Assembly: GCF_003337305.1 (NCBI RefSeq)
Contig: NZ_QPJO01000001.1
Location: 124,001 to 188,000, forward strand
Reading direction: 5' to 3'
Length of the DNA: 64,000 nt
Origin: Winogradskyella arenosi
GTDB taxonomy: Bacteria; Bacteroidota; Bacteroidia; Flavobacteriales; Flavobacteriaceae
This document shows, one piece after another, positions 594-10,630 of this stretch; the first letter of the stretch is position 1; the number at the start of each line of letters is the position of its first letter. Both the position numbers and the translations under genes were made by a program. The notes beneath the pieces are model-generated. The model did not search any database, was not told the DNA's origin, and saw only the letters and a list, made by a program, of their open reading frames with translations.

Positions 594-1934
594 TTATAAA
601 ATCTGACCTTGTAACTTTTTATGCAATAACATGGCGTTTGTATCCGAAAGTTTTGAGATGTAGAGACATACCGCTAATAGGTTGTCATAAAGAGAATCGG
701 TATTAAGCTGCACAATCTCTGGCAATGTACTGAGCAATAGCTTATCGTAATTAGAGAGCTTTCCGAGGTAATAGTGATAAGCCATTTTACCAAATGCTTC
801 TAATAATTGATTGAGAATCTTATAGCCTGCAATCTCCTTATTAATAACGTCTTTAGAGCGGTAAACATTATTTATACTAATATTAATGATATCCTTAATT
901 TGGGCTTTATACTGACTCACATCAAGCAAAGCGGTTTCAAACTTTCCTTCTAAAATCGCTTCTTCATGGGCCATAAATAAGGTTGCCGCTTCATCAATAA
1001 GGCGTCCAATCGCTAAGGCCCGTAAATAACTTATACGGTCTTGCGTAGTTTTAAGGGTGTTATAATTCTCCGTTTTTATACTGCCACGCACCAAATTAAT
1101 AAGGTACTCTAAGGCGTATTCTTCTTGAATTAATCCAAGGTTAATACCATCTTCAAAATCAATAATCGTATAACAGATATCATCTGCAGCCTCTACCAAG
1201 AAGGCTAAAGGGTGTCTTTGAAAACTTAAATAATCGTCATGTCGTTTAATTAAGCCTAGGTCCGTAGCAATATCATTAAACATGTGTTTTTCACTTTGAA
1301 AAAAGCCATATTTCTTATCCACAATATGGTTACTCGGTTTTTTAGGCAAAGATTCTTTAGGGTACTTCATAAAAGCGCCCAATGTGGCATAGCTTAATCT
1401 AAGACCGCCTTCTCTCCCAACTCTACTCTCGGTTAAGATCTTAAATCCGTTAGCATTACCTTCAAAATCACAGAGGTCTTGATATTCTTTTGCCGTTAGT
1501 TGCGCTTTAAACTCAGCGCCATGACCTTCTCTAAAATAGGCGCCAATAGCTTTTTCTCCAGAATGTCCAAAAGGAGGGTTCCCAATATCATGAGCCAAAG
1601 CTGCTGCGGCTACAATAGCCCCAAAGTCATTCATTTTATAACCATGAACACTTTCTAGATGCGGATGTTTTTGTAAAAGCAATTGCCCTACGCGTCTTCC
1701 TAGAGAGCGCCCTACGACACTCACTTCTAAACTGTGGGTTAAACGGGTGTGGACAAAATCGGTTTTAGACAAGGGTACCACCTGGGTTTTGTCTTGTAAA
1801 CCTCTAAATTCAGAAGAAAATATAATCCGATCATAATCCACTTCAAACCCCAAGCGGGTCTCATCTTGTTCCTTTCTTAATCTCTTATTCGTATCGCCAA
1901 AGCGCTTTAAGGATAGTAATTGTTCCCAGTTCAT
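594..1934 (-). CDS. dgt: Deoxyguanosinetriphosphate triphosphohydrolase-like HD-domain protein
   Basis: The 446-aa protein has the N-terminal dGTPase block (FSSEFRGLQDKTQV), an HD-domain histidine in TRLTHSLEV (about residue 66) and the metal-binding HD pair in ALAHDIGNPPFGHSGE (about residues 113-128), with a further conserved aspartate in EAADDICYTI. Dgt enzymes hydrolyse dGTP to deoxyguanosine and tripolyphosphate, and some homologues act on other dNTPs. Length is normal. It is cytoplasmic and monocistronic, divergent from the lipoprotein gene at 2109. Confidence 0.92.
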   Translation of the reverse strand: MNWEQLLSLKRFGDTNKRLRKEQDETRLGFEVDYDRIIFSSEFRGLQDKTQVVPLSKTDFVHTRLTHSLEVSVVGRSLGRRVGQLLLQKHPHLESVHGYKMNDFGAIVAAAALAHDIGNPPFGHSGEKAIGAYFREGHGAEFKAQLTAKEYQDLCDFEGNANGFKILTESRVGREGGLRLSYATLGAFMKYPKESLPKKPSNHIVDKKYGFFQSEKHMFNDIATDLGLIKRHDDYLSFQRHPLAFLVEAADDICYTIIDFEDGINLGLIQEEYALEYLINLVRGSIKTENYNTLKTTQDRISYLRALAIGRLIDEAATLFMAHEEAILEGKFETALLDVSQYKAQIKDIINISINNVYRSKDVINKEIAGYKILNQLLEAFGKMAYHYYLGKLSNYDKLLLSTLPEIVQLNTDSLYDNLLAVCLYISKLSDTNAMLLHKKLQGQIL

Positions 1935-2014: not shown

Positions 2015-2080
2015 TAACCTTTTTATCACCAAGGCTTAACCATGAGGTAACAGACTTTTTCGGCTTTCGCAGTTTCTTTG
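2015..2080 (+). promoter_or_regulatory. Pho-box-like array of four 11-bp repeats plus -7-like box
   Basis: TAACC (2015), TCACC (2026), TAACC (2037) and TAACA (2048) recur at exactly 11-bp steps, the spacing at which PhoB-type regulators bind direct repeats. A TTTCTTTG sequence (2073-2080), one mismatch from TAnnTTTG, starts 25 bp after the last repeat; the pit promoter shows the same 25-bp spacing. The start codon follows at 2109. The spacing is directly visible; the assignment to PhoB is inference. Confidence 0.6.
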
Positions 2081-2108
2081 CGGCATAACAATTAATGAAC
2101 AAAACAAA

Positions 2109-3335
2109 ATGAAAACAATTAAAAATTTATCTTTCTTATTTGCATTTTCACTATTAGCATTTAACTGTAGTAGTGATGATGACAACGGTACAACTACTGG
2201 TGGTGGAGTTGATAACGAATTAGTTCAAAAATCTGGAATTATCACAGCAGATGAAACATGGTCTTCTAGCAACATTTATCAATTAAATGGAAAAGTGGTT
2301 GTTAATGACGGTGTAACTTTAACTATTGAAGCAGGAACTATTATTAAAGGTGCAGAAGGACAAGAGTCTTTAGCGTCTGCTTTAGTTGTGGATCAAGGTG
2401 GTAAAATAATGGCTGAAGGAACGTCTTCAAACCCTATCATTATGACCTCTGTTTTAGATAATATTACTTACGGTGAAACTGCTGGTACCAACTTAAACCA
2501 AAATGATGTTGGATTATGGGGTGGTTTAATCATCTTAGGACGTGCACCTATCTCTGTTAGTGGTGATGTTGAAACAGCACAGATTGAAGGAATTCCTGCA
2601 ACTGAGCCTTACGGTCAGTACGGAGGAACTGATGCTGATGATAACTCTGGGGTTTACAAATACATTTCTGTAAGACATGGTGGTATTACTATAGGATCTG
2701 ATAACGAAATTAACGGTGTTACCTTTGGTGGTGTTGGTGCTGGTACTACAGTAGAGAACATCGAGGTTGTTTCTAACCAAGATGATGGATTTGAGTGGTT
2801 CGGTGGAACTGTGAATGCTACAAATTTAATTACATGGTCTCATGGTGATGACGGTTTAGATGCTGATCAAGCTTGGTCTGGTTCTGTAACTAACGCTGTA
2901 GTGGTTCAAGGTGTTGAGTCTGGAAGTGCTCTAGAATTAGACGGACCTGAAGGATCTGCTGCTACAGAAGCGGGTTACACAATGAGCAACATTACTTTAA
3001 TTGGTAACGCTTCTAACTCTAGTTACATAGCAGATTGTAGAGATGGTTTAATTGCCAACTTAAATAACATTTTAGCTTACAATTTTAGCGCTGATGCTAC
3101 TGTAAGAATTAGTGGAGAAGATTCTCAAACTGAATTCACTGCTGGTCGCTTAGCATTCTCTAATTGGGAAGTTGTTTTACCAACAGGTGTTGCATTAGCA
3201 GATCTTATTGAAGCAGACGCTAACGCAGAAAACTTTACAAATAACGTATCAGCGATCACAGCTACTGAAGCATCAACTGGTGCAAACACTTCAGTATTTG
3301 GATGGACTTACGCAGCGTCTCAAAACGCCTTCTAA
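2109..3335 (+). CDS. Surface lipoprotein with right-handed beta-helix fold, candidate phosphate-starvation protein
   Basis: The 408-aa protein has a lipoprotein signal ending LLAFNCSS (Cys20), then an acidic linker (SDDDNG) that suggests surface export in this phylum. The body has short repeated strands such as VNDGVTLTIEAGTIIKG and VVDQGGKIMAEG, the rung pattern of a parallel beta-helix. A conserved acidic, aromatic segment, NQDDGFEWFGGTVNATN (about residues 220-236), is followed by HGDDGLDADQAWSG. The exact function is unknown. It precedes a TonB-dependent receptor by 76 bp with a hairpin between them, and it sits behind a Pho-box-like array. A role as substrate-capturing partner of the receptor is inference. 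Confidence 0.8.
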   Translation: MKTIKNLSFLFAFSLLAFNCSSDDDNGTTTGGGVDNELVQKSGIITADETWSSSNIYQLNGKVVVNDGVTLTIEAGTIIKGAEGQESLASALVVDQGGKIMAEGTSSNPIIMTSVLDNITYGETAGTNLNQNDVGLWGGLIILGRAPISVSGDVETAQIEGIPATEPYGQYGGTDADDNSGVYKYISVRHGGITIGSDNEINGVTFGGVGAGTTVENIEVVSNQDDGFEWFGGTVNATNLITWSHGDDGLDADQAWSGSVTNAVVVQGVESGSALELDGPEGSAATEAGYTMSNITLIGNASNSSYIADCRDGLIANLNNILAYNFSADATVRISGEDSQTEFTAGRLAFSNWEVVLPTGVALADLIEADANAENFTNNVSAITATEASTGANTSVFGWTYAASQNAF

Positions 3336-3355
3336 ATTAACAAACATAATTTTTC

Positions 3356-3390
3356 AAAATGTCCGAAAATCACTTTCGGACATTTTGTAT
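3356..3390 (+). terminator. Hairpin between lipoprotein and TonB receptor genes
   Basis: A perfect 13-bp inverted repeat (3356-3368 and 3374-3386) with a 5-nt loop lies 20 bp after the lipoprotein stop. It is followed by a U-poor AT stretch. It may be a partial terminator or mRNA-stabilising hairpin that lets the lipoprotein be expressed above the receptor. Confidence 0.65.
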
Positions 3391-3411
3391 ATTTTAAAAT
3401 AATACCCTAAA

Positions 3412-6237
3412 ATGCTTAAATCTGTATCTCTTTTTTTTTCAATTCTTTTATCTCTTTCATTCGTATCGGCACAAGAGACCGGAACGTTAACGGGTAAAAT
3501 TTTTGATGGTGAATTTAACGATGTGCTTCCTTTTGCTAATGTTGTAGTTCAAAACTCCTCAACTGGTACCACGACCGACTTTGATGGTGTCTATAAATTA
3601 ACCCTAGATGTCGGAACCTACACCTTAGTGTATTCTTTTGTGGGTTATGAAACAAAAGCGATTTCTGAAGTCACTATTGAAGCTAATAATGTTGTTGAAG
3701 TTAATGTAACTTTAAACCCCTCTTCTGCAGCTTTAAGTGAAGTGGTAATTACCACCTCTGCTCGAAGAAACACAGAAGAATCGGTGCTTAACCTGCAACG
3801 TAATTCGGCTGTACTTTTAGATGGTCTTTCTATTGAAAGCATCAAAAAATCAGGGGCAAGTGATATTGCTTCTGCGATTAAAAGTGTACCTGGTGTATCT
3901 GTACAAAACGGAAAGTTTGTATACGTTAGAGGTTTAGGAGACCGTTACACCAAATCTATTTTAAATGGGATGGATATTCCTGGACTTGACCCTGACAAAA
4001 ACACGGTTCAGATGGATATTTTCCCTACCAATATTTTAGAAAACATAATTGTTATAAAATCAGGATCTGCAGATTTACCAGCAGATTTTACAGGAGGTGT
4101 TGTAGATATCATTACTAAGGATTTCCCTTCAAGAAAAACGATGAGCTTCTCAGTCTCTACGACCTACAACCCTGATATGAGCTTTAACTCTAACTACGTA
4201 ACTTACGATGGTAGCGGTACTGACTTTTTAGGTTTTGACAGTGGTACTCGAGAATTACCAGTAACCCCTACAACAGATATTCCAAACCCAGCTTCTGCTA
4301 ATAACAGCAGCTTAGAAGGGATTACCCGTTCTTTCAATAGAACTTTAGCGACAGAACGTGGCACCAGTAGTCCAGATTTTAGCTTAGGGTTTAATTACGG
4401 TAATCAATTTGATTTGGGTGAAAATCGTTTAGGTTTAATTGCCTCTATTAACTACAAAAACGAAACTAAATTTTATGAAGGTTTTGAAAATGGGGTGTAT
4501 CAAAAAAATGAAGATCGTTCTATAAACGCCTTAAGATTTGACCGTAGACAAACCGGTGATTTAGGTGAAAATAACGTTTTATTAAGTGGTTTAGTAGGTT
4601 TATCTTATAAAACGGATAACTCTAAATATAACTTCAATGTTTTACACATTCAAAATGGAGAAAGTAGAGCGGCCTTATTTACACAAAACACAGAAATCTC
4701 TAACGATATTGATGTTAACAAAGACAATTTAGAATACACACAACGTTCATTAACTAATTTCTTAATTGGAGGTCAGCACAACGATATTGAAAATGATTTC
4801 ATTACAGAATGGAAAATTTCTCCAAGCTTTAGTCGTGTATATGATAAAGATGTACGCTTAACGACTTTTATTATAAACAATGATGGCTCTACAAGTATCA
4901 GTTCTGATGCAGGTTTCCCACAACGTTTATGGAGAGACTTAGAAGAGTTTAACGGAACAGGTAAGGTAGATTTCACTAAAAAATACGAATTATTTAGCAA
5001 GCCTGCAGCCCTTAAATTTGGTGCTTTAGCAAGTTATAAAAAACGTAATTACGATATCTATAAGTATGAAGTTGCTTTTAGAAGTGTAAACACAACAACT
5101 TTTAACGGTGATCCGAATGCGATTTTAGATCCTAACAATATTTGGACACCTGATACCAATTCAGGGTCTTATATTCGTGGTAATTTTGAACCGGCCAACT
5201 CTTACGAATCTGTACAAAATACAGCGGCAGCTTATGTTTCTAATGAGTTTAAGATTACTGAAAAACTGAAATCTATTGTTGGACTTAGAGCTGAATATTT
5301 TACAACCTTATTTACAGGTCAAAACAATTCAGGTTCTGAAATCTATGATAATGAAAAAACTATTGAAGAATTAGATTTATTCCCTTCTGCAAACTTTATT
5401 TATGAAGCCAATGAAAAATCTAACATACGTTTATCTTACTTCCGTACGGTAGCACGACCAAGTTTTAAGGAGTCTTCAGTAGTACAAATCCCAGATTTAT
5501 TAACAGGAATAACCTTCTTAGGAAATATTGACTTACAACCCTCTTACATTAACAACTTTGATGCGAGATACGAATTCTTTGGTGAGAAAGCACAAATGTT
5601 TGCCGTTAGTGGATTTTACAAACAATTCAAAGACCCTATTGAGTTAGTGGCCTTTTCTTTTGTTGCACCAAATCAGTTTACCCCGAGAAACTCACCAGAA
5701 GCAAAAGTATATGGTTTAGAGTTTGAAGGTCGAAAAAACTTTGGTTTTATCTCAGAGTCTTTAACCGATTTAAGTTTAAATGTGAACATCTCAATTATTG
5801 AATCTGAGATTGAAATGGCTAAGGGCGAAGGTCAAGAATACGAATCTAGACAACAGTTTGCTAGAGATGGGGAAACTATAGACGATACTAGAGAGTTACA
5901 AGGTCAGTCTCCGTACTTAGTTAACGTAGGTTTAAACTACAACAATACCGCTTCAGGTTTTGAAACTGGAATCTTTTATAATGTTCAAGGAAAAACCTTA
6001 CAAGTTGTAGGATTTGGTCAGAATCCGGATGTATACACACAATCATTTAACAGCTTAAACTTTAATCTTTCTAAAACTTTTGGAGAAGACAACAGATCTA
6101 AAATCAGCTTAAAGATTAGCAATATTCTTAACGACGAAAGATTAAGTCAGTATGAATCTTTTGGTGATACCACGGCAAACTTTTCAGTAAGAAACCCTGG
6201 AACATCGTTTAGCTTAGGCTACAGCATGAAGCTATAA
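3412..6237 (+). CDS. TonB-dependent receptor with N-terminal carboxypeptidase-like domain
   Basis: The 941-aa protein has a signal peptide (to about residue 20), then a CarboxypepD_reg-like domain (GTLTGKIFDGEFNDVLPFANVVV to GYETKAISEVTI, residues ~24-100), a plug domain (SIKKSGASDIASAIKSVPGV to GGVVDIITKDFPSRK, ~140-245) and a long 22-strand barrel ending in the aromatic C-terminal strand GYSMKL. It forms an outer-membrane gated channel energised by TonB. It is shorter and differently built from the SusC proteins later in this window. Location behind the lipoprotein and Pho-box array, and before porin and Pit genes, suggests import of a phosphorus-containing substrate; this is inference. Confidence 0.88.
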   Translation: MLKSVSLFFSILLSLSFVSAQETGTLTGKIFDGEFNDVLPFANVVVQNSSTGTTTDFDGVYKLTLDVGTYTLVYSFVGYETKAISEVTIEANNVVEVNVTLNPSSAALSEVVITTSARRNTEESVLNLQRNSAVLLDGLSIESIKKSGASDIASAIKSVPGVSVQNGKFVYVRGLGDRYTKSILNGMDIPGLDPDKNTVQMDIFPTNILENIIVIKSGSADLPADFTGGVVDIITKDFPSRKTMSFSVSTTYNPDMSFNSNYVTYDGSGTDFLGFDSGTRELPVTPTTDIPNPASANNSSLEGITRSFNRTLATERGTSSPDFSLGFNYGNQFDLGENRLGLIASINYKNETKFYEGFENGVYQKNEDRSINALRFDRRQTGDLGENNVLLSGLVGLSYKTDNSKYNFNVLHIQNGESRAALFTQNTEISNDIDVNKDNLEYTQRSLTNFLIGGQHNDIENDFITEWKISPSFSRVYDKDVRLTTFIINNDGSTSISSDAGFPQRLWRDLEEFNGTGKVDFTKKYELFSKPAALKFGALASYKKRNYDIYKYEVAFRSVNTTTFNGDPNAILDPNNIWTPDTNSGSYIRGNFEPANSYESVQNTAAAYVSNEFKITEKLKSIVGLRAEYFTTLFTGQNNSGSEIYDNEKTIEELDLFPSANFIYEANEKSNIRLSYFRTVARPSFKESSVVQIPDLLTGITFLGNIDLQPSYINNFDARYEFFGEKAQMFAVSGFYKQFKDPIELVAFSFVAPNQFTPRNSPEAKVYGLEFEGRKNFGFISESLTDLSLNVNISIIESEIEMAKGEGQEYESRQQFARDGETIDDTRELQGQSPYLVNVGLNYNNTASGFETGIFYNVQGKTLQVVGFGQNPDVYTQSFNSLNFNLSKTFGEDNRSKISLKISNILNDERLSQYESFGDTTANFSVRNPGTSFSLGYSMKL

Positions 6238-6255
6238 GCTATAGTTACTGAAAAC

Positions 6256-6291
6256 AAAAAAGAGCTGTAATACGTATTACAGCTCTTTTTT
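6256..6291. terminator. Bidirectional rho-independent terminator
   Basis: A perfect palindrome centred at 6273/6274 (core AGAGCTGTAATAC and its complement) is flanked by an A-run on the left and a T-run on the right. It can terminate both the receptor gene (+) and the convergent YwqK-like gene (-). Confidence 0.9.
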
Positions 6292-6307
6292 TATATATAA
6301 TGTTTAC

Positions 6308-6664
6308 TTAGTTCCTAGATACCAAAGTACGATCATTAGACCATTCTACAACTTGAACAATTCGGTTGTTTTTATAATCTACTTCTTTTAAAACATCACC
6401 TTCCCAAAAGAACCATTTCCCTACTTTTTTTCCTGCTTCATAAGTTGCTGAAGCTAGTTTGTTACCTTCAGAATCAAAACTGGTCCATTCTCCTTGTAAT
6501 TTACCATTTTTATCAAACGCACCTGTTTGCTGAATTTCTCCATTATCATGGTAATACGTAGCAACAATACCATTATCGTTCTTCTCTAATTTAGGTTGTA
6601 TTTTTTCTTGTGCAAACGTAAACCCTACACACAGCATTACGATCATTGTTACTATCTTTTTCAT
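6308..6664 (-). CDS. Secreted YwqK/MORN-repeat-like protein
   Basis: The 118-aa protein has a signal peptide MKKIVTMIVMLCVGFTFAQ cleaved near residue 19. It then has repeated YYHDNGEIQQTG, GKLQGEWTSFDSEGN and YEAGKKVGKWFFW units typical of the YwqK/MORN-like family, which occurs in periplasmic or exported proteins of this phylum. The molecular role is not known; database names such as antitoxin for YwqK are not supported by anything here. Its promoter region contains the five-unit 11-bp repeat array, so it may belong to the phosphate-responsive set. Confidence 0.75.
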   Translation of the reverse strand: MKKIVTMIVMLCVGFTFAQEKIQPKLEKNDNGIVATYYHDNGEIQQTGAFDKNGKLQGEWTSFDSEGNKLASATYEAGKKVGKWFFWEGDVLKEVDYKNNRIVQVVEWSNDRTLVSRN

Positions 6665-6695
6665 ACAATTGGGGTTTTAATTAATAATTACTATA

Positions 6696-6751
6696 CGAAT
6701 ATAACATAAAATTTACATTTAAACAACATTTACGTAACATTAAGTTAACAT
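6696..6751. promoter_or_regulatory. Five-unit 11-bp Pho-box-like array upstream of the YwqK-like gene
   Basis: TAACA (6702), TTACA (6713), CAACA (6724), TAACA (6735) and TAACA (6746) occur at exact 11-bp intervals. On the minus strand a TATATTCG box (6696-6703), one mismatch from TAnnTTTG, abuts the array and would start transcription toward the gene at 6664. The repeat orientation matches that of the other arrays, all of which face rightward genes, so which gene it controls is uncertain. Confidence 0.55.
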
Positions 6752-6859
6752 TAAACCCCTAAAACACTTGTGTACAGATTCTTACATATTACAAAACCGC
6801 TTAATTTAAACTTAATAATTACATAATGTTAGCATTACACACCTAAAACCTTTAATTGC

Positions 6860-6976
6860 CATATTTGTAACGTGTTATTATAACACTTTAAGCATTTCAT
6901 AGGTATTATTAGTTTTTGTCGACTTAATAAATATGAATTTTAATAAGGCTGCTTTTTTCTAAAGCGGCCTTTTTTC
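6860..6976 (+). ncRNA. Candidate small RNA upstream of the porin gene
   Basis: CATATTTG (6860-6867) is one mismatch from TAnnTTTG. It is followed by a GTGTTA-tta-TAACAC hairpin (6872-6886), a linker holding ATTAGTTTTTGTCG (6908-6921) and a rho-independent terminator (6945-6976). The predicted RNA of about 100 nt contains only a 9-codon frame. Its 14-nt linker segment is exactly complementary to 7041-7054 in the porin leader. It could be a free small RNA or an attenuated porin leader. No family recognised. Confidence 0.35.
6945..6976 (+). terminator. Rho-independent terminator before the porin promoter
   Basis: AAGGCTGC (6945-6952) pairs with GCGGCCTT (6964-6971) through one G-U, followed by a T-run. 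It lies between two rightward promoter-like elements, so a transcript from the left ends here before the porin promoter. Confidence 0.75.
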
Positions 6977-7002
6977 TTGCAACAGATATCGTAATAATAA
7001 GA

Positions 7003-7036
7003 AAACATTCTGTTAACATTAGACTTAGTAATTTTG
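7003..7036 (+). promoter_or_regulatory. Porin promoter: two-unit Pho-box-like repeat and perfect -7 box
   Basis: AAACA (7003) and TAACA (7014) are 11 bp apart. TAATTTTG (7029-7036) fits the Bacteroidota -7 consensus TAnnTTTG exactly. The repeats occupy the position where a -33 box would lie, as expected for an activator-dependent promoter. The start codon is at 7063. Confidence 0.6.
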
Positions 7037-7062
7037 CTCCCGACAAAAACTAATGACTAATA

Positions 7063-8268
7063 ATGAAATTATCATTCTCTACGATTGCTATGGTACTCAT
7101 AGTAATGTCTACTCTTGGTGCTCAAGAAATTAGCGATACCTCTTTTGGTAAGGGTCTAATTAACTTTACGGCTAAAGACAGCTCTTTTAGTATAAAATTC
7201 GCCCCACGTTTTCAAGTCCGTTCTATTTCATCATGGGATTACGACAGCGATCAGTACGGAAGTCCAGAACACAATTTTATTGTTCGCCGAGCACGTTTAA
7301 AATTTGATGGGTTTGCGTATTCACCTCAACTCCGTTATAAATTAGAATTAGGCTTATCTAATCGCGATATTTCAGGCGCCAACGACTATAATAGAAATAC
7401 ACCACGTTATATTTTAGACGCTGTAGCCATGTGGAATTTTACAGGGAATTGGGAGCTTTGGGCCGGACAAACAAAACTTCCTGGTAACGTAGAACGTGTC
7501 ATTTCTTCTGCCAACCTTCAATTTATAAACCGTTCCTTATTAAATAGCAGTTTTAATTTAGATCGCGATATCGGTATTCAGTTAAGACACAAAACAGCCA
7601 TCGGTAAAACCCTAGTAATGCGCGAAAAATTTGCAATTTCACAAGGTGAAGGCCGTAATGTTACGGAAGGTAATGAAGGCGGTTTACAATATACAGCCCG
7701 ATTAGAAATCTTACCATTTGGAATGTTTAAATCTAAAGGCGACTACAGCCAATCTGATTTAAAACGTGAAGAAAATCCAAAATTAATGCTTGGCTTTACC
7801 TACAACTACAACCAAGATGCCGTTAGAGAACGTGGTTTTGCTGGAGATTATATGTTAAGAGCTGACGGAACCCTTTATGAAACCGACCAAACTACCCTAT
7901 TTGCAGATGCTATGTTTAAGTACCGCGGATTTTCGTTTATGGGCGAATATGCCAAACGTACTGCTGAAGACGAAATAGCCACAGAAGCAGATTCCATGAC
8001 ACCAACAGGAGCTCTTGTGCTTACCGGAAGTGCTGTAAATTTACAAGCCGGGTATTTACTAAAAAGTAATTATGAGATAGCCCTGCGTTTTACCACCTTA
8101 GACTATGAAGAGGTTACAGGAACTTTACCCGAAGAACAGTATACCCTTGGAGCGTCTAAATACATTGTAGGCCACAAACTAAAAATACAGTCAGATCTTA
8201 GCTATACCACTGAAGATAAGAACCAAGATAATATTACCTTTAGGCTTGGTTTTGATATTCACTTTTAA
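7063..8268 (+). CDS. OprP/OprO-type (phosphate-selective) outer-membrane porin
   Basis: The 401-aa protein has a signal peptide (cleaved near GAQE, residue ~20) and then FAPRFQVRSISSWDYD and RARLKFDGFAYSPQLRYKLELGLSNRD, hallmarks of the phosphate-selective porin O/P family. Beta strands alternate to a C-terminal FRLGFDIHF ending in the terminal phenylalanine of outer-membrane barrels. Members of the family pass phosphate or polyphosphate in proteobacteria; Bacteroidota members are less studied. It lies 79 bp before the Pit transporter gene and behind a Pho-box-like promoter, which supports phosphate as substrate. Confidence 0.85.
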   Translation: MKLSFSTIAMVLIVMSTLGAQEISDTSFGKGLINFTAKDSSFSIKFAPRFQVRSISSWDYDSDQYGSPEHNFIVRRARLKFDGFAYSPQLRYKLELGLSNRDISGANDYNRNTPRYILDAVAMWNFTGNWELWAGQTKLPGNVERVISSANLQFINRSLLNSSFNLDRDIGIQLRHKTAIGKTLVMREKFAISQGEGRNVTEGNEGGLQYTARLEILPFGMFKSKGDYSQSDLKREENPKLMLGFTYNYNQDAVRERGFAGDYMLRADGTLYETDQTTLFADAMFKYRGFSFMGEYAKRTAEDEIATEADSMTPTGALVLTGSAVNLQAGYLLKSNYEIALRFTTLDYEEVTGTLPEEQYTLGASKYIVGHKLKIQSDLSYTTEDKNQDNITFRLGFDIHF

Positions 8269-8280
8269 ACTTAAAAAATA

Positions 8281-8324
8281 TAACAATTACATAACCTTAT
8301 TCTGAAATTCTAATCAGATATTTG
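8281..8324 (+). promoter_or_regulatory. Pit promoter: two-unit Pho-box-like repeat and -7-like box
   Basis: TAACA (8281) and TAACC (8292) are 11 bp apart. GATATTTG (8317-8324), one mismatch from TAnnTTTG, begins 25 bp after the second repeat, the same spacing as before the lipoprotein gene. This suggests pit has its own phosphate-regulated promoter in addition to read-through from the porin. Confidence 0.55.
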
Positions 8325-8347: not shown

Positions 8348-10630
8348 ATGGATAATATTTATTTATTAATGTTAATTGCCATTACCGTTTTAGCGATTGC
8401 TGATATTGTAGTTGGTGTTAGTAATGATGCTATTAACTTTTTAAACTCGGCTATTGGATCTAAAGCAATATCATTAAGATCAATTATGATCATTGCCAGT
8501 TTAGGAATCTTTATTGGTGCCGTCTTCTCTAGCGGAATGATGGAAGTTGCAAGAAAAGGTATTTTTGTACCCGCACAATTTGAGTTCGGTGAAATTATGC
8601 TCATTTTCATGGCCGTAATGATTACAGATATCTTATTGCTAGATTTCTTTAACACCCTTGGTTTACCAACCTCTACAACGGTTTCTATTGTATTCAACTT
8701 ATTGGGTGCTGCTGTTGTGATGTCACTTATAAAAATTAGCCAATCTGAAACAGAAACCTTTGCAGATCTAGGAAAATACATTGCTACAGATACCGCGTTA
8801 ACGATTATTAGTGGTATTCTACTGTCGGTGATTATTGCTTTCACGGTCGGTGCCTTAGTACAATGGGTTTCTCGATTGATTTTCACCTTTAACTTTGAAA
8901 AAAAATTAAAGCACTTCGGAATTGTTTTTGCCGGTGTAGCTTTAACCGCTATTACATACTTTATTTTCTTAAAAGGTTTAAAAGGAACACCTTATTATAA
9001 AGAATTGAAGAGTGTTTTAGAAGGAAACGAAGCCTATATTATTCTAGGTAGCTTTGTCTTTTGGACTTTATTTTCTTTTGGTTTTGAAAAGCTCACTAAA
9101 AAGACCTCTTTACTAGCCGTTATTGCGGTAGGAACATTTGGTTTAGCATTAGCCTTCTCTGGTAACGATTTAGTAAACTTTATCGGGGTACCAATGGCAG
9201 CTTACCACTCTTATGAAGCATGGATTGCTGGCGGAATGGATGTTGGTATGTCTATGTCTGTATTAGAGAAAAAAGTACCGGCTGAACCTTATTTATTATT
9301 CATTGCAGGAGCCATCATGGTCTTAACCTTATGGTTTTCTAAAAAAGCAAAATCTGTTGCAGAAACAGAATTAAGCTTATCGCGTCAAGGCGATACGCAC
9401 GATAAATTTGAGCCTAACCGTCTCTCTAGAGCTATTGTAAAAGGATCTTCACAATTATCTAGTTATTTTGGTGTCTTAGTTCCTAAATCATTCCAGGTAA
9501 AAATTAATAATAGTTTTGATAAGCCTGCCTCTAATATGACCAAAGATCAAAGTATGGATGCCCCTGCTTTTGATATGATTAGAGCTTCTGTTAACTTAAT
9601 GGTTGCCGGTGTTCTTATTGCTATTGCAACCTCATTTAAATTGCCATTATCTACAACTTATGTGACCTTTATGGTGGCCATGGGTACCTCTTTAGCCGAT
9701 AGAGCTTGGGGTAGAGAAAGTGCTGTATACAGAGTTGCCGGAGTATTAAATGTTATTGGTGGATGGTTTGGTACCGCATTAGGAGCCTTTTTAGCTGCTG
9801 GTATCGTGGTGTTCTTAATCAACTGGAATCCATCAGTAATGATTCCTATTTTATTATTAATTACAGCATTATTACTTTACAGAAACTATGTTTCGCATAA
9901 AAAATCATCAAACAAGACCGCCGAAGAAGACAGTCTTAAAGAGACTGGAAGTAGCTCTGTACAAGGTGTTATTTTAGAAAGTGCAGATAACATTTCTAAC
10001 GTGGTAAAACGTGGAAACAAAATCTACACAAATGCGGTGAACGGATTAGCAAAACAAGACTTATCCTTATTAAAAAAGAATAAAAAACAAGTCGATAAGT
10101 TAGCTAAGGAAGTTGATAGTCTTAGAGATAACATCTTCTATTTTATTAAAAATTTAGATGAAACAAGTCTTCGTGCAAGTAGTTTCTATATTAACATCTT
10201 AGGATACTTAGAAGATATGACGCAGTCTTTAGAATACATTTCTAAGGTGAGCCATAAGCATATTAACAACAACCATAAGAAACTTAAATTTAGCCAGATT
10301 AAAGAATTAAAAGAAATTGATACGGCCTTAGAAATTCTATTTAACGATACTAAATCGGCCTTTAATTCACATTCTTTTGAGCAAATTGGTGTTATCATTA
10401 ATCGTAAGAAGGAAGTATTAGACCTTGTTACCGACAAGATTGTAAAACAAGTAGCTAGAACACGAACTGAAGAGTCGAGTCCTAAAAATACCACCTTGTA
10501 TTTTGGATTACTCTTAGAAACTAAAGATTTATTAGTTGCTACTATGAATCTTTTAGAAGAGTATTACAATGCTCATGACAGCTCTGTAGAGCCTGCAACT
10601 TTAGCTGCTGACAAGCAAGAAGTGGAGTAA
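8348..10630 (+). CDS. pit: Inorganic phosphate transporter (Pit family) fused to a PhoU-like DUF47 domain
   Basis: The 760-aa protein begins with a Pit (PF01384-type) domain: DIVVGVSNDAINFLNSAIGSKA at ~21-42 and the second signature FSGNDLVNFIGVPMAAYHSY at ~275-294, with about 10-12 membrane segments through residue ~520. After a polar linker (~525-560) comes a mostly helical cytoplasmic domain, NISNVVKRGNKIYTN to LLEEYYNAHD (~555-745), resembling PhoU/DUF47. Pit proteins import phosphate by cation symport, and the PhoU-like tail probably gates the transporter; such fusions are known in this phylum. A strong terminator follows. Confidence 0.93.
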   Translation: MDNIYLLMLIAITVLAIADIVVGVSNDAINFLNSAIGSKAISLRSIMIIASLGIFIGAVFSSGMMEVARKGIFVPAQFEFGEIMLIFMAVMITDILLLDFFNTLGLPTSTTVSIVFNLLGAAVVMSLIKISQSETETFADLGKYIATDTALTIISGILLSVIIAFTVGALVQWVSRLIFTFNFEKKLKHFGIVFAGVALTAITYFIFLKGLKGTPYYKELKSVLEGNEAYIILGSFVFWTLFSFGFEKLTKKTSLLAVIAVGTFGLALAFSGNDLVNFIGVPMAAYHSYEAWIAGGMDVGMSMSVLEKKVPAEPYLLFIAGAIMVLTLWFSKKAKSVAETELSLSRQGDTHDKFEPNRLSRAIVKGSSQLSSYFGVLVPKSFQVKINNSFDKPASNMTKDQSMDAPAFDMIRASVNLMVAGVLIAIATSFKLPLSTTYVTFMVAMGTSLADRAWGRESAVYRVAGVLNVIGGWFGTALGAFLAAGIVVFLINWNPSVMIPILLLITALLLYRNYVSHKKSSNKTAEEDSLKETGSSSVQGVILESADNISNVVKRGNKIYTNAVNGLAKQDLSLLKKNKKQVDKLAKEVDSLRDNIFYFIKNLDETSLRASSFYINILGYLEDMTQSLEYISKVSHKHINNNHKKLKFSQIKELKEIDTALEILFNDTKSAFNSHSFEQIGVIINRKKEVLDLVTDKIVKQVARTRTEESSPKNTTLYFGLLLETKDLLVATMNLLEEYYNAHDSSVEPATLAADKQEVE

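Follow-up and report, generated by a model that had tools for sequence, protein, structure and literature searches.

The stretch analysed here (the window) comprises 64,000 nucleotides (nt) of the 3.67-Mb genome of Winogradskyella arenosi (contig NZ_QPJO01000001.1, positions 124,001 to 188,000), and near its left end lies a block of genes for a phosphate-type porin and a Pit-type transporter, in which runs of five-letter units are repeated at steps of 11 base pairs (bp). In the first-pass annotation, four such arrays had been counted and taken as the operators of a Pho regulon; a fifth array, with its own -7 box and a small RNA behind it, was missed. By comparison with the relatives of the locus, which belong to the Flavobacteriaceae, Winogradskyella among them, this is probably a Pho-type uptake locus in which the small RNA pairs with the leader of the porin mRNA and blocks porin translation, under a regulator that is predicted to belong to the PhoB family. 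The features are the following:

2015-2052, plus strand: array 1 (TAACC/TCACC/TAACC/TAACA; units at 2015, 2026, 2037 and 2048) in the promoter of the lipoprotein and TonB receptor genes
2073-2080, plus strand: -7 octamer TTTCTTTG, beginning 25 bp past the start of the last unit of array 1
2109-3335, plus strand: gene of a secreted or lipoprotein-like protein without Pfam or NCBIfam match
3412-6237, plus strand: gene of a TonB-dependent receptor (domains Plug, TonB_dep_Rec and CarbopepD_reg_2)
6308-6664, minus strand: gene of a small MORN_2-like protein (match below the Pfam cut-off), divergent from the small RNA
6702-6750, plus strand: array 2, five units (6702, 6713, 6724 with CAACA, 6735 and 6746)
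6813-6839, plus strand: array 5 (TAATA at 6813, TAATG at 6824, TTACA at 6835; 11-bp steps) in the promoter of the small RNA
6860-6867, plus strand: -7 octamer CATATTTG of the small RNA, exactly 25 bp after the start of the last unit of array 5
about 6872-6975, plus strand: small RNA of some 104 nt, with predicted ends and three stem-loops
6908-6921, plus strand: ATTAGTTTTTGTCG around the central loop of the RNA, perfectly antisense over 14 nt to 7041-7054
6945-6971, plus strand: intrinsic terminator of 11 pairs followed by a T run (one found, 0.1 in shuffles)
7003-7018, plus strand: array 3 (AAACA/TAACA) in the porin promoter
7029-7036, plus strand: -7 octamer TAATTTTG of the porin
7041-7054, plus strand: CGACAAAAACTAAT in the porin mRNA leader, 9-22 nt ahead of the ATG, where the small RNA is predicted to pair
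7063-8268, plus strand: porin gene, Porin_O_P by Pfam (PF07396, E 5e-13)
8281-8296, plus strand: array 4 (TAACA/TAACC) in the Pit promoter
8317-8324, plus strand: -7 octamer GATATTTG of Pit
8348-10630, plus strand: gene of the Pit-type phosphate transporter, PHO4 by Pfam (PF01384, E 2e-29)

The positions and the 11-bp steps of the four arrays had been read correctly, and their phosphate setting is supported by the Porin_O_P and PHO4 domains in the block. The unit motif given for them, T[ACT]AC[AC], holds for 11 of the 13 units; CAACA at 6724 and AAACA at 7003 depart from it, and with the latter the strict unit fails in array 3. All four units of array 1 fit, and this is the sole run of at least three such units at period 11 on either strand of the window. 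Strict matches of two units occur also inside coding sequence (at 5533, 8114, 40653 and, on the minus strand, 46345), and the pair numbers at other periods are similar to that at period 11, which is why the two-unit arrays do not rise above chance from the window alone. Since the genome-wide counts given further below show no excess either, the operator is not readable from the pattern alone, and conservation was used instead.

The comparison used the loci of the 80 best porin orthologues out of 98 relatives; one of them (L071) has no upstream DNA, and another (L082), in which the RNA core is present, was left out of the first table. Judged by these relatives, the 11-bp repeats are real, and all four arrays noted at first recur at the same places in these Flavobacteriaceae. 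Upstream of the lipoprotein gene (25 relatives), unit offsets of 11, 22 and 33 bp were counted 40, 14 and 20 times and all others at most 4 times, and upstream of Pit (77 loci, window included), the count at offset 11 is 56 and the next highest 16. The 420 nt upstream of the porin (66 loci, array 2 partly included) gave 61, 34 and 34 for the same three offsets, followed by offsets 5 and 16 with 20 each. Beside the MORN-like gene, which 69 of 78 relatives have on the minus strand, the counts in these 69 are 61, 45 and 45, with 18 as the next, and the other strand has no 11-bp pairs; with a looser half-site, at least two half-sites stand in register there in 68 of the 69 and at least three in 55. 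At least two strict units in register were found in 23 of 25 lipoprotein loci (base-shuffled mean 0.5) and 55 of 76 Pit loci (0.4), and in 13 of 78 porin loci and 7 of 73 small-RNA loci (0.4 each), the latter two counts being low because the upstream half-sites there are AAACA or TAATA.

The phase of the arrays was measured from the -7 octamer (four letters, then TTTG), which is taken here to be the Bacteroidota promoter element, with [TA][AT]AC[ACG] as the half-site. At exactly -25, a half-site is present in the promoters of the lipoprotein (23 of 25), the small RNA (55 of 62), the porin (76 of 78) and Pit (70 of 74), these counts being limited to relatives with the box, which is present in 62 of 73 for the small RNA and in 74 of 76 for Pit. 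Further slots are filled promoter by promoter: an extra half-site is found at -14 in 57 of the 78 porin promoters and at -36 in 72 of the 74 Pit promoters, the 25 lipoprotein promoters have further units at -14 (15), -58 (23) and -69 (22), and the small-RNA promoters have TAATA or TAATG at -47 and at -36 (56 of 62 each) and TTAC[ACG] at -25 (55 of 62). A spacing of 11/12/11 was also considered for the small-RNA promoter and ruled out, as the steps are 11 throughout when registered to the -7 box. The -7 box had been placed 25 bp after the last unit twice and 15 bp once, which, counted from the start of that unit, holds for arrays 1 and 4 and for array 3, respectively, and the relatives indicate that the two distances are a single ladder with different rungs filled and with -25 as the common slot; the porin units of the window lie one base further out than those of the relatives, at 15 and 26. 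Conservation and fixed phase give strong support to one operator shared by the lipoprotein/TonB-receptor, porin and Pit promoters, and three marks of a PHO box are found here: at least two direct repeats at an 11-bp period, a fixed placement before the promoter, and a presence before phosphate genes (Pit and the pstS loci described below). Array 2 is inverted relative to the gene that it abuts, 6308-6664 on the minus strand, where it covers the upstream promoter region and adjoins a TAnnTTTG-like box (6703-6696, minus strand, by eye), and it may repress this gene or aid the RNA promoter from afar.

The small RNA has by its sequence what is expected of a base-pairing RNA, namely its own promoter, an intrinsic terminator and a structure with covariation. 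The stretch 6872-6975 folds with -27.9 kcal/mol, compared to -13.4 in shuffles (z -5.8), and five relatives gave z values of -3.7 to -6.7. Of 79 loci, that of the window among them, 74 have the RNA core GTTTTTGTC[GA][AG]C ahead of the porin, and 61 of these 74 RNAs were aligned, the divergent ones being left out (L086, L091, L093, L097, L098, L099, L100, L102, L103, L104, L110, L111 and L113). In this alignment, 93.7% of the cells of the structure can pair and 30-50% in slid versions, the structure being counted without the 5' stem-loop and its central stem being set from one relative (L092), which favours it somewhat. Two-sided changes occur in 11 pairs, mostly in the terminator stem, compared to 4.9 in shuffles (reached in 0 of 500), and RNAalifold on a plain MAFFT alignment recovered the terminator and the loop hairpin only. 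A GTCGAC in the loop (at 6918-6923, for example) is nearly invariant and self-complementary, which would also permit loop-loop dimers.

There is no Rfam match at the small RNA, and a small RNA beside this porin is apparently undescribed so far. A covariance model of it matches at E<1e-6 in 24 of the 68 genus genomes, the next matches following at 5e-4, and the former are 24 of the 25 genus genomes that have a porin of at least 69% identity (the exception is G065); the window's genome has one strong copy. Across the family, 133 of 299 sampled genomes and 113 of 236 genera have a match at E<=1e-3, the weakest of which may be due to chance. Of 70 family loci that were opened, some of them from the same genomes as other loci, the fetched piece contains a homologue of this porin in 62, and the remaining eight have a different porin-like gene (L165), another gene with pstS behind it (L195, L218), a contig end (L184, L188), a leader whose porin-like start is broken off (L182), or Pit but no porin (L156, L200). 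The genome with the broken-off start (G208; L182, L183) has two RNA copies with the same leader motif, one of which precedes that start.

The pairing of the RNA with the porin leader in the window is a perfect match of 14 nt with -20.1 kcal/mol. The exact CGACAAAAACTA occurs twice in the genome, in the small RNA and in the porin leader, and among 27 sites with at most one mismatch, none but the porin leader is both exact and placed before a gene. Another near-match (L132) has its mismatch inside GAC and lies just before the ATG of a frame of 413 amino acids, yet within a longer open frame, and the others are inside long frames or not before a start. From 151 loci, 133 pairs of RNA and leader were obtained, as 17 gave no pair under the regular expression and a false match (L065) was removed before the permutation test. 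In these pairs, the median distance to the first ATG is 25 nt from TTTG and 20 nt from the beginning of the pairing site. With their own partner, the 133 pairs reach a mean of -18.39 kcal/mol, compared to -17.37 (standard deviation 0.096) with permuted partners, the 126 distinct pairs (seven of the 133 are letter-for-letter repeats from overlapping collections) reach -18.48 compared to -17.42 (0.10), and the 37 RNA types -18.94 compared to -16.61 (0.26); 0 of 20,000 permutations reached the own value in each case, but as the loci are related, these tests are inflated, and the permutation counts are not probabilities. The own leader is better than the average leader in 34 of the 37 RNA types and 89 of the 126 distinct pairs.

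The letters behind this preference can be followed, partly by eye. The usual combination is TATTAG with CTAATA, and instead of it there is TTTAAG with CTTAAA in L098, L110 and L113, TTCTAG with CTAGAA plus a bulge in L204, CGTAAAG with CTTTAACG in L220, and CTTTG with CAAAG in L302 (all by eye); L209 is a further compensatory case, and in leaders with CAAAAATTAAT, other pairings are preserved by G-U wobble. By these comparisons, the complementarity of RNA and leader is kept by compensatory change in several lineages. When the family was searched for a -7 box together with the leader motif, 100 of 299 genomes had a match; the backward control matched often as well, and many of the true matches are away from the RNA. 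A distant paralogue of the porin (about 39% identity) has no leader motif and, by eye, no array in the two copies from the same genus and the two others that were inspected.

The porin loci without the RNA also speak for the pairing, with one exception. Five porin loci have no RNA (L052, L065, L095, L101, L106), and in four of them the leader is changed inside GACAAAAA, the unchanged one being L065. In L052, L065, L101 and L106, the coding sequence upstream resembles, by eye, the start of the dGTPase gene that precedes the block in the window (594-1934, minus strand), as if the whole stretch from the lipoprotein gene to the RNA had gone.

From these data, the following mechanism may be proposed. 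One regulator of the OmpR/PhoB family would bind half-sites T[TA]AC[AC], arranged head to tail every 11 bp and in a fixed phase, with a half-site 25 bp before the -7 octamer on the lipoprotein/TonB-receptor, small-RNA, porin and Pit promoters, and with the further array beside the divergent small gene. The small RNA, if transcribed as drawn and ended by its own terminator, would present its central loop (core UAGUUUUUGUCGAC), and the loop would pair with nearly the whole short porin leader (GACAAAAACUAA..., from about 20 nt before the start codon). As the pairing covers the landing site of the ribosome, the RNA most likely blocks porin translation. Repression is also favoured because of the analogy with FopS of Bacteroides, which is reported to pair next to the start codon of susC and to prevent its translation (PMC11697453). 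As one type of operator precedes both the RNA and the porin, the simplest circuit is a co-induced brake (an incoherent feed-forward), in which repression would serve as a brake or threshold on phosphate entry at the outer membrane within the Pho response.

The same RNA could by the same pairing also activate the porin, if pairing at the very 5' end protects the mRNA against decay or unfolds the leader, which is unlikely but has some precedents. The pairing site is near the 5' end, as the median distance of 25 nt from TTTG to the first ATG implies, and elsewhere the sRNA132 of Haloferax is described as acting positively on a phosphate transporter operon (PMC6560208), while loss of Rfp18 in Flavobacterium is described as lowering two predicted target mRNAs (PMC9723704). 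The site covers, however, the very zone that is needed by a starting ribosome, and the leader is so short that it would have little structure to open.

PhoB is the likely binder of the arrays, as predicted from their form and from the phosphate genes around them. Among 199 genomes sampled from the family, ten have a relative of one particular PstS at E<=1e-20, and in eight of these (G123, G114, G197, G126, G070, G074, G098, G104) pstS is immediately preceded by the RNA core and a gene of 335-407 codons. That gene is Porin_O_P by Pfam in G123 and G098 and no homologue of this porin in G114, and in the other five it was judged by length and N-terminus only. In the ninth genome (G099), a porin-sized gene and pstS are present but the RNA core is not, and the tenth (G108) has a PstS relative of 33% identity. 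By Pfam, the run in G123 is RNA, Porin_O_P, PstS-type protein, two permeases, ATPase, PhoU and Pit; G335, from outside the sample, has the RNA core, a gene of 335 amino acids without Pfam match, and then pst. Within about 100 bp before pstS, there is an array in five of nine resolved loci (L289, L290, L292, L293, L294), a count that has no chance control and is to be seen against chance pairs in coding sequence there, and G335 has such an array as well. In G126 (L293/L300), pstS has its own array and a leader with GCAAAAACTAATA, and may be a second target of the small RNA.

It is nevertheless conceivable, if improbable, that the arrays are bound by an OmpR-family regulator other than PhoB, responding to envelope stress, potassium or something else, with phosphate being incidental. 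Seven full-length OmpR-like candidates in the genome score 144-214 bits and none of them passes the PhoB cut-off, the pattern yielded no genome-wide regulon, and KdpE and PhoP, which are of the OmpR family, are also described as binding direct repeats. The arrays before pstS in the five of nine loci and in G335, and the one on the Pit promoter, speak for phosphate and thus against another regulator. The PhoB-like regulator (L229, 6365-7051) is paired with a kinase; a Type IX-secreted DUF5689 protein is encoded divergently from it (L229, 4400-6130, minus strand).

There may also be no free RNA at all, and read-through past the terminator would then give a long hairpin of both arms that silences the read-through porin mRNA. 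The two arms share a strand at a distance of roughly 100-200 nt, and one is seldom found without the other, but between them there is a conserved terminator and then a separate conserved porin promoter, and the loop is displayed in a conserved stem of its own, so that such an attenuator is quite unlikely. That the inverted pair is merely a duplicated DNA or RNA element bound by a protein, as the nearly fixed core letters would allow, is very improbable, since the letters that flank the core vary jointly and in complementary fashion.

Several observations weigh against a PhoB-controlled repressor RNA. Concerning the operator, the excess of the array pattern that the first-pass annotation had proposed to look for did not appear: three strict units in register are found at 4 places in the genome, two of them inside array 1, compared to 5 for the backward pattern, and two units plus a -7-like box at 10 compared to 7, counted in the whole genome rather than in intergenic regions only. 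This test is weak because each pattern recovers only one of the five arrays. The other two places of the three-unit search (L003, L004) adjoin unrelated genes. Concerning phosphate, the window's own genome has no PhoU and one weak PstS-like match, which is above the Pfam cut-off, with none at 1e-20, and its best PhoB-like regulator scores 214 bits, compared to a family cut-off of 296. Of the Pho regulon as first suggested, the shared operator and the phosphate setting (Porin_O_P, PHO4, pstS loci) are supported, and binding by PhoB is a prediction. In Flavobacterium johnsoniae, moreover, the OprP-type gene in the phoBR operon is reported as not induced by phosphate depletion (log2 -1.3, P 0.25; PMC8115612), although that gene may differ from the porin of the window.

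Concerning the pairing, and besides the relatedness of the loci already mentioned, 3 of the 37 RNA types (L058, L069, L188) and 37 of the 126 distinct pairs show no gain in binding with their own leader over the average one, and the leader has an uncompensated extra A in ten rows (eight distinct). In G126 and L082, the RNA is present and the leader is yet changed inside GAC, with G-U pairs retained in both; the pair table required ACAAAA and cannot show how frequent such leader changes are. Two genomes, finally, retain the RNA without an adjacent porin (G188, L156/L307; G081, L200/L247). In both of them, the RNA is followed by Pit, and there are only distant porin paralogues in these genomes. 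The T run of the terminator is interrupted in both, but also in some RNAs that are adjacent to a porin (L087, L090, L091, L218), and it is thus a weak mark of RNAs without one.

Known systems share parts of this arrangement. PhoP boxes of Bacillus are of the TTAACA type. Published Pho boxes are described as 11-nt direct repeats (PMC4415409), and for the cyanobacterial SphR, the consensus is given as CTTAACCT, at least three times in tandem with 3-bp linkers (PMC1906773). Like these boxes of PhoB in Escherichia coli and of SphR, the arrays are tandem 11-nt direct repeats before a box of the -10 type, and the SphR unit is close to that of the arrays; unlike them, the arrays are phased to the Bacteroidota -7 octamer (-25), have up to about six units (by eye), and have a regulator that is predicted.

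FopS and GibS, small RNAs of Bacteroides and thus of the Bacteroidota, repress mRNAs by pairing close to the start codon, as is predicted for the small RNA of the window; the FopS targets are SusC transporters of the outer membrane (PMC11697453). FopS is described as having a single-stranded 5' seed and a terminator, 14 paralogues, and targets in polysaccharide utilization loci (PMC11697453), whereas the window RNA has its seed in the central loop, exists in one strong copy, and matches a neighbouring gene; its predicted fold has no single-stranded 5' seed followed by the terminator. It has no Rfam match, the presence of FopS in that release being unchecked. Rfp18 of Flavobacterium psychrophilum is likewise a conserved flavobacterial small RNA of strong structure, but its predicted targets are metalloproteases and an adhesin, contacted via the third stem-loop (PMC9723704), and it is by description only that the two RNAs are set apart. 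The sRNA132 of Haloferax volcanii, like the window RNA, concerns phosphate-transporter expression, but it is archaeal, with a positive effect, an ABC transporter as target and a regulon of about 40 genes (PMC6560208). The phoBR cluster of F. johnsoniae also combines an OprP-type porin (PF07396), a TonB receptor and a lipoprotein, the last two of which are reported to be strongly induced by phosphate depletion (PMC8115612); phoBR is inside that cluster, the parts of the report drawn on here describe no small RNA or operator, and the likeness is one of gene content only. A literature search (top-ranked items, by titles and starts of abstracts) returned no flavobacterial Pho box and no Bacteroidota small RNA for phosphate uptake.

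With chances that are about evenly balanced, the preferred reading of a repressing RNA can be extended to the whole family. RNA and phosphate porin would then be a dedicated and vertically kept tandem couple on the same strand and under the same Pho-type operator, the RNA would seal nearly the whole of a very short leader, with letter-by-letter co-evolution across the Flavobacteriaceae, and the cassette, which can stand before whole pst-phoU operons, would amount to a post-transcriptional valve built into the Pho response at the outer membrane. With T[TA]AC[AC] in steps of 11 bp and a half-site placed 25 bp ahead of the -7 octamer, the operator is defined precisely enough for bench tests, and the small RNA offers one clear predicted partner as well as natural compensatory variants for a two-plasmid assay. 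Flavobacteriaceae are abundant in waters where phosphate can be limiting, and if the proposal is true, their Pho response includes a post-transcriptional valve at the outer membrane.

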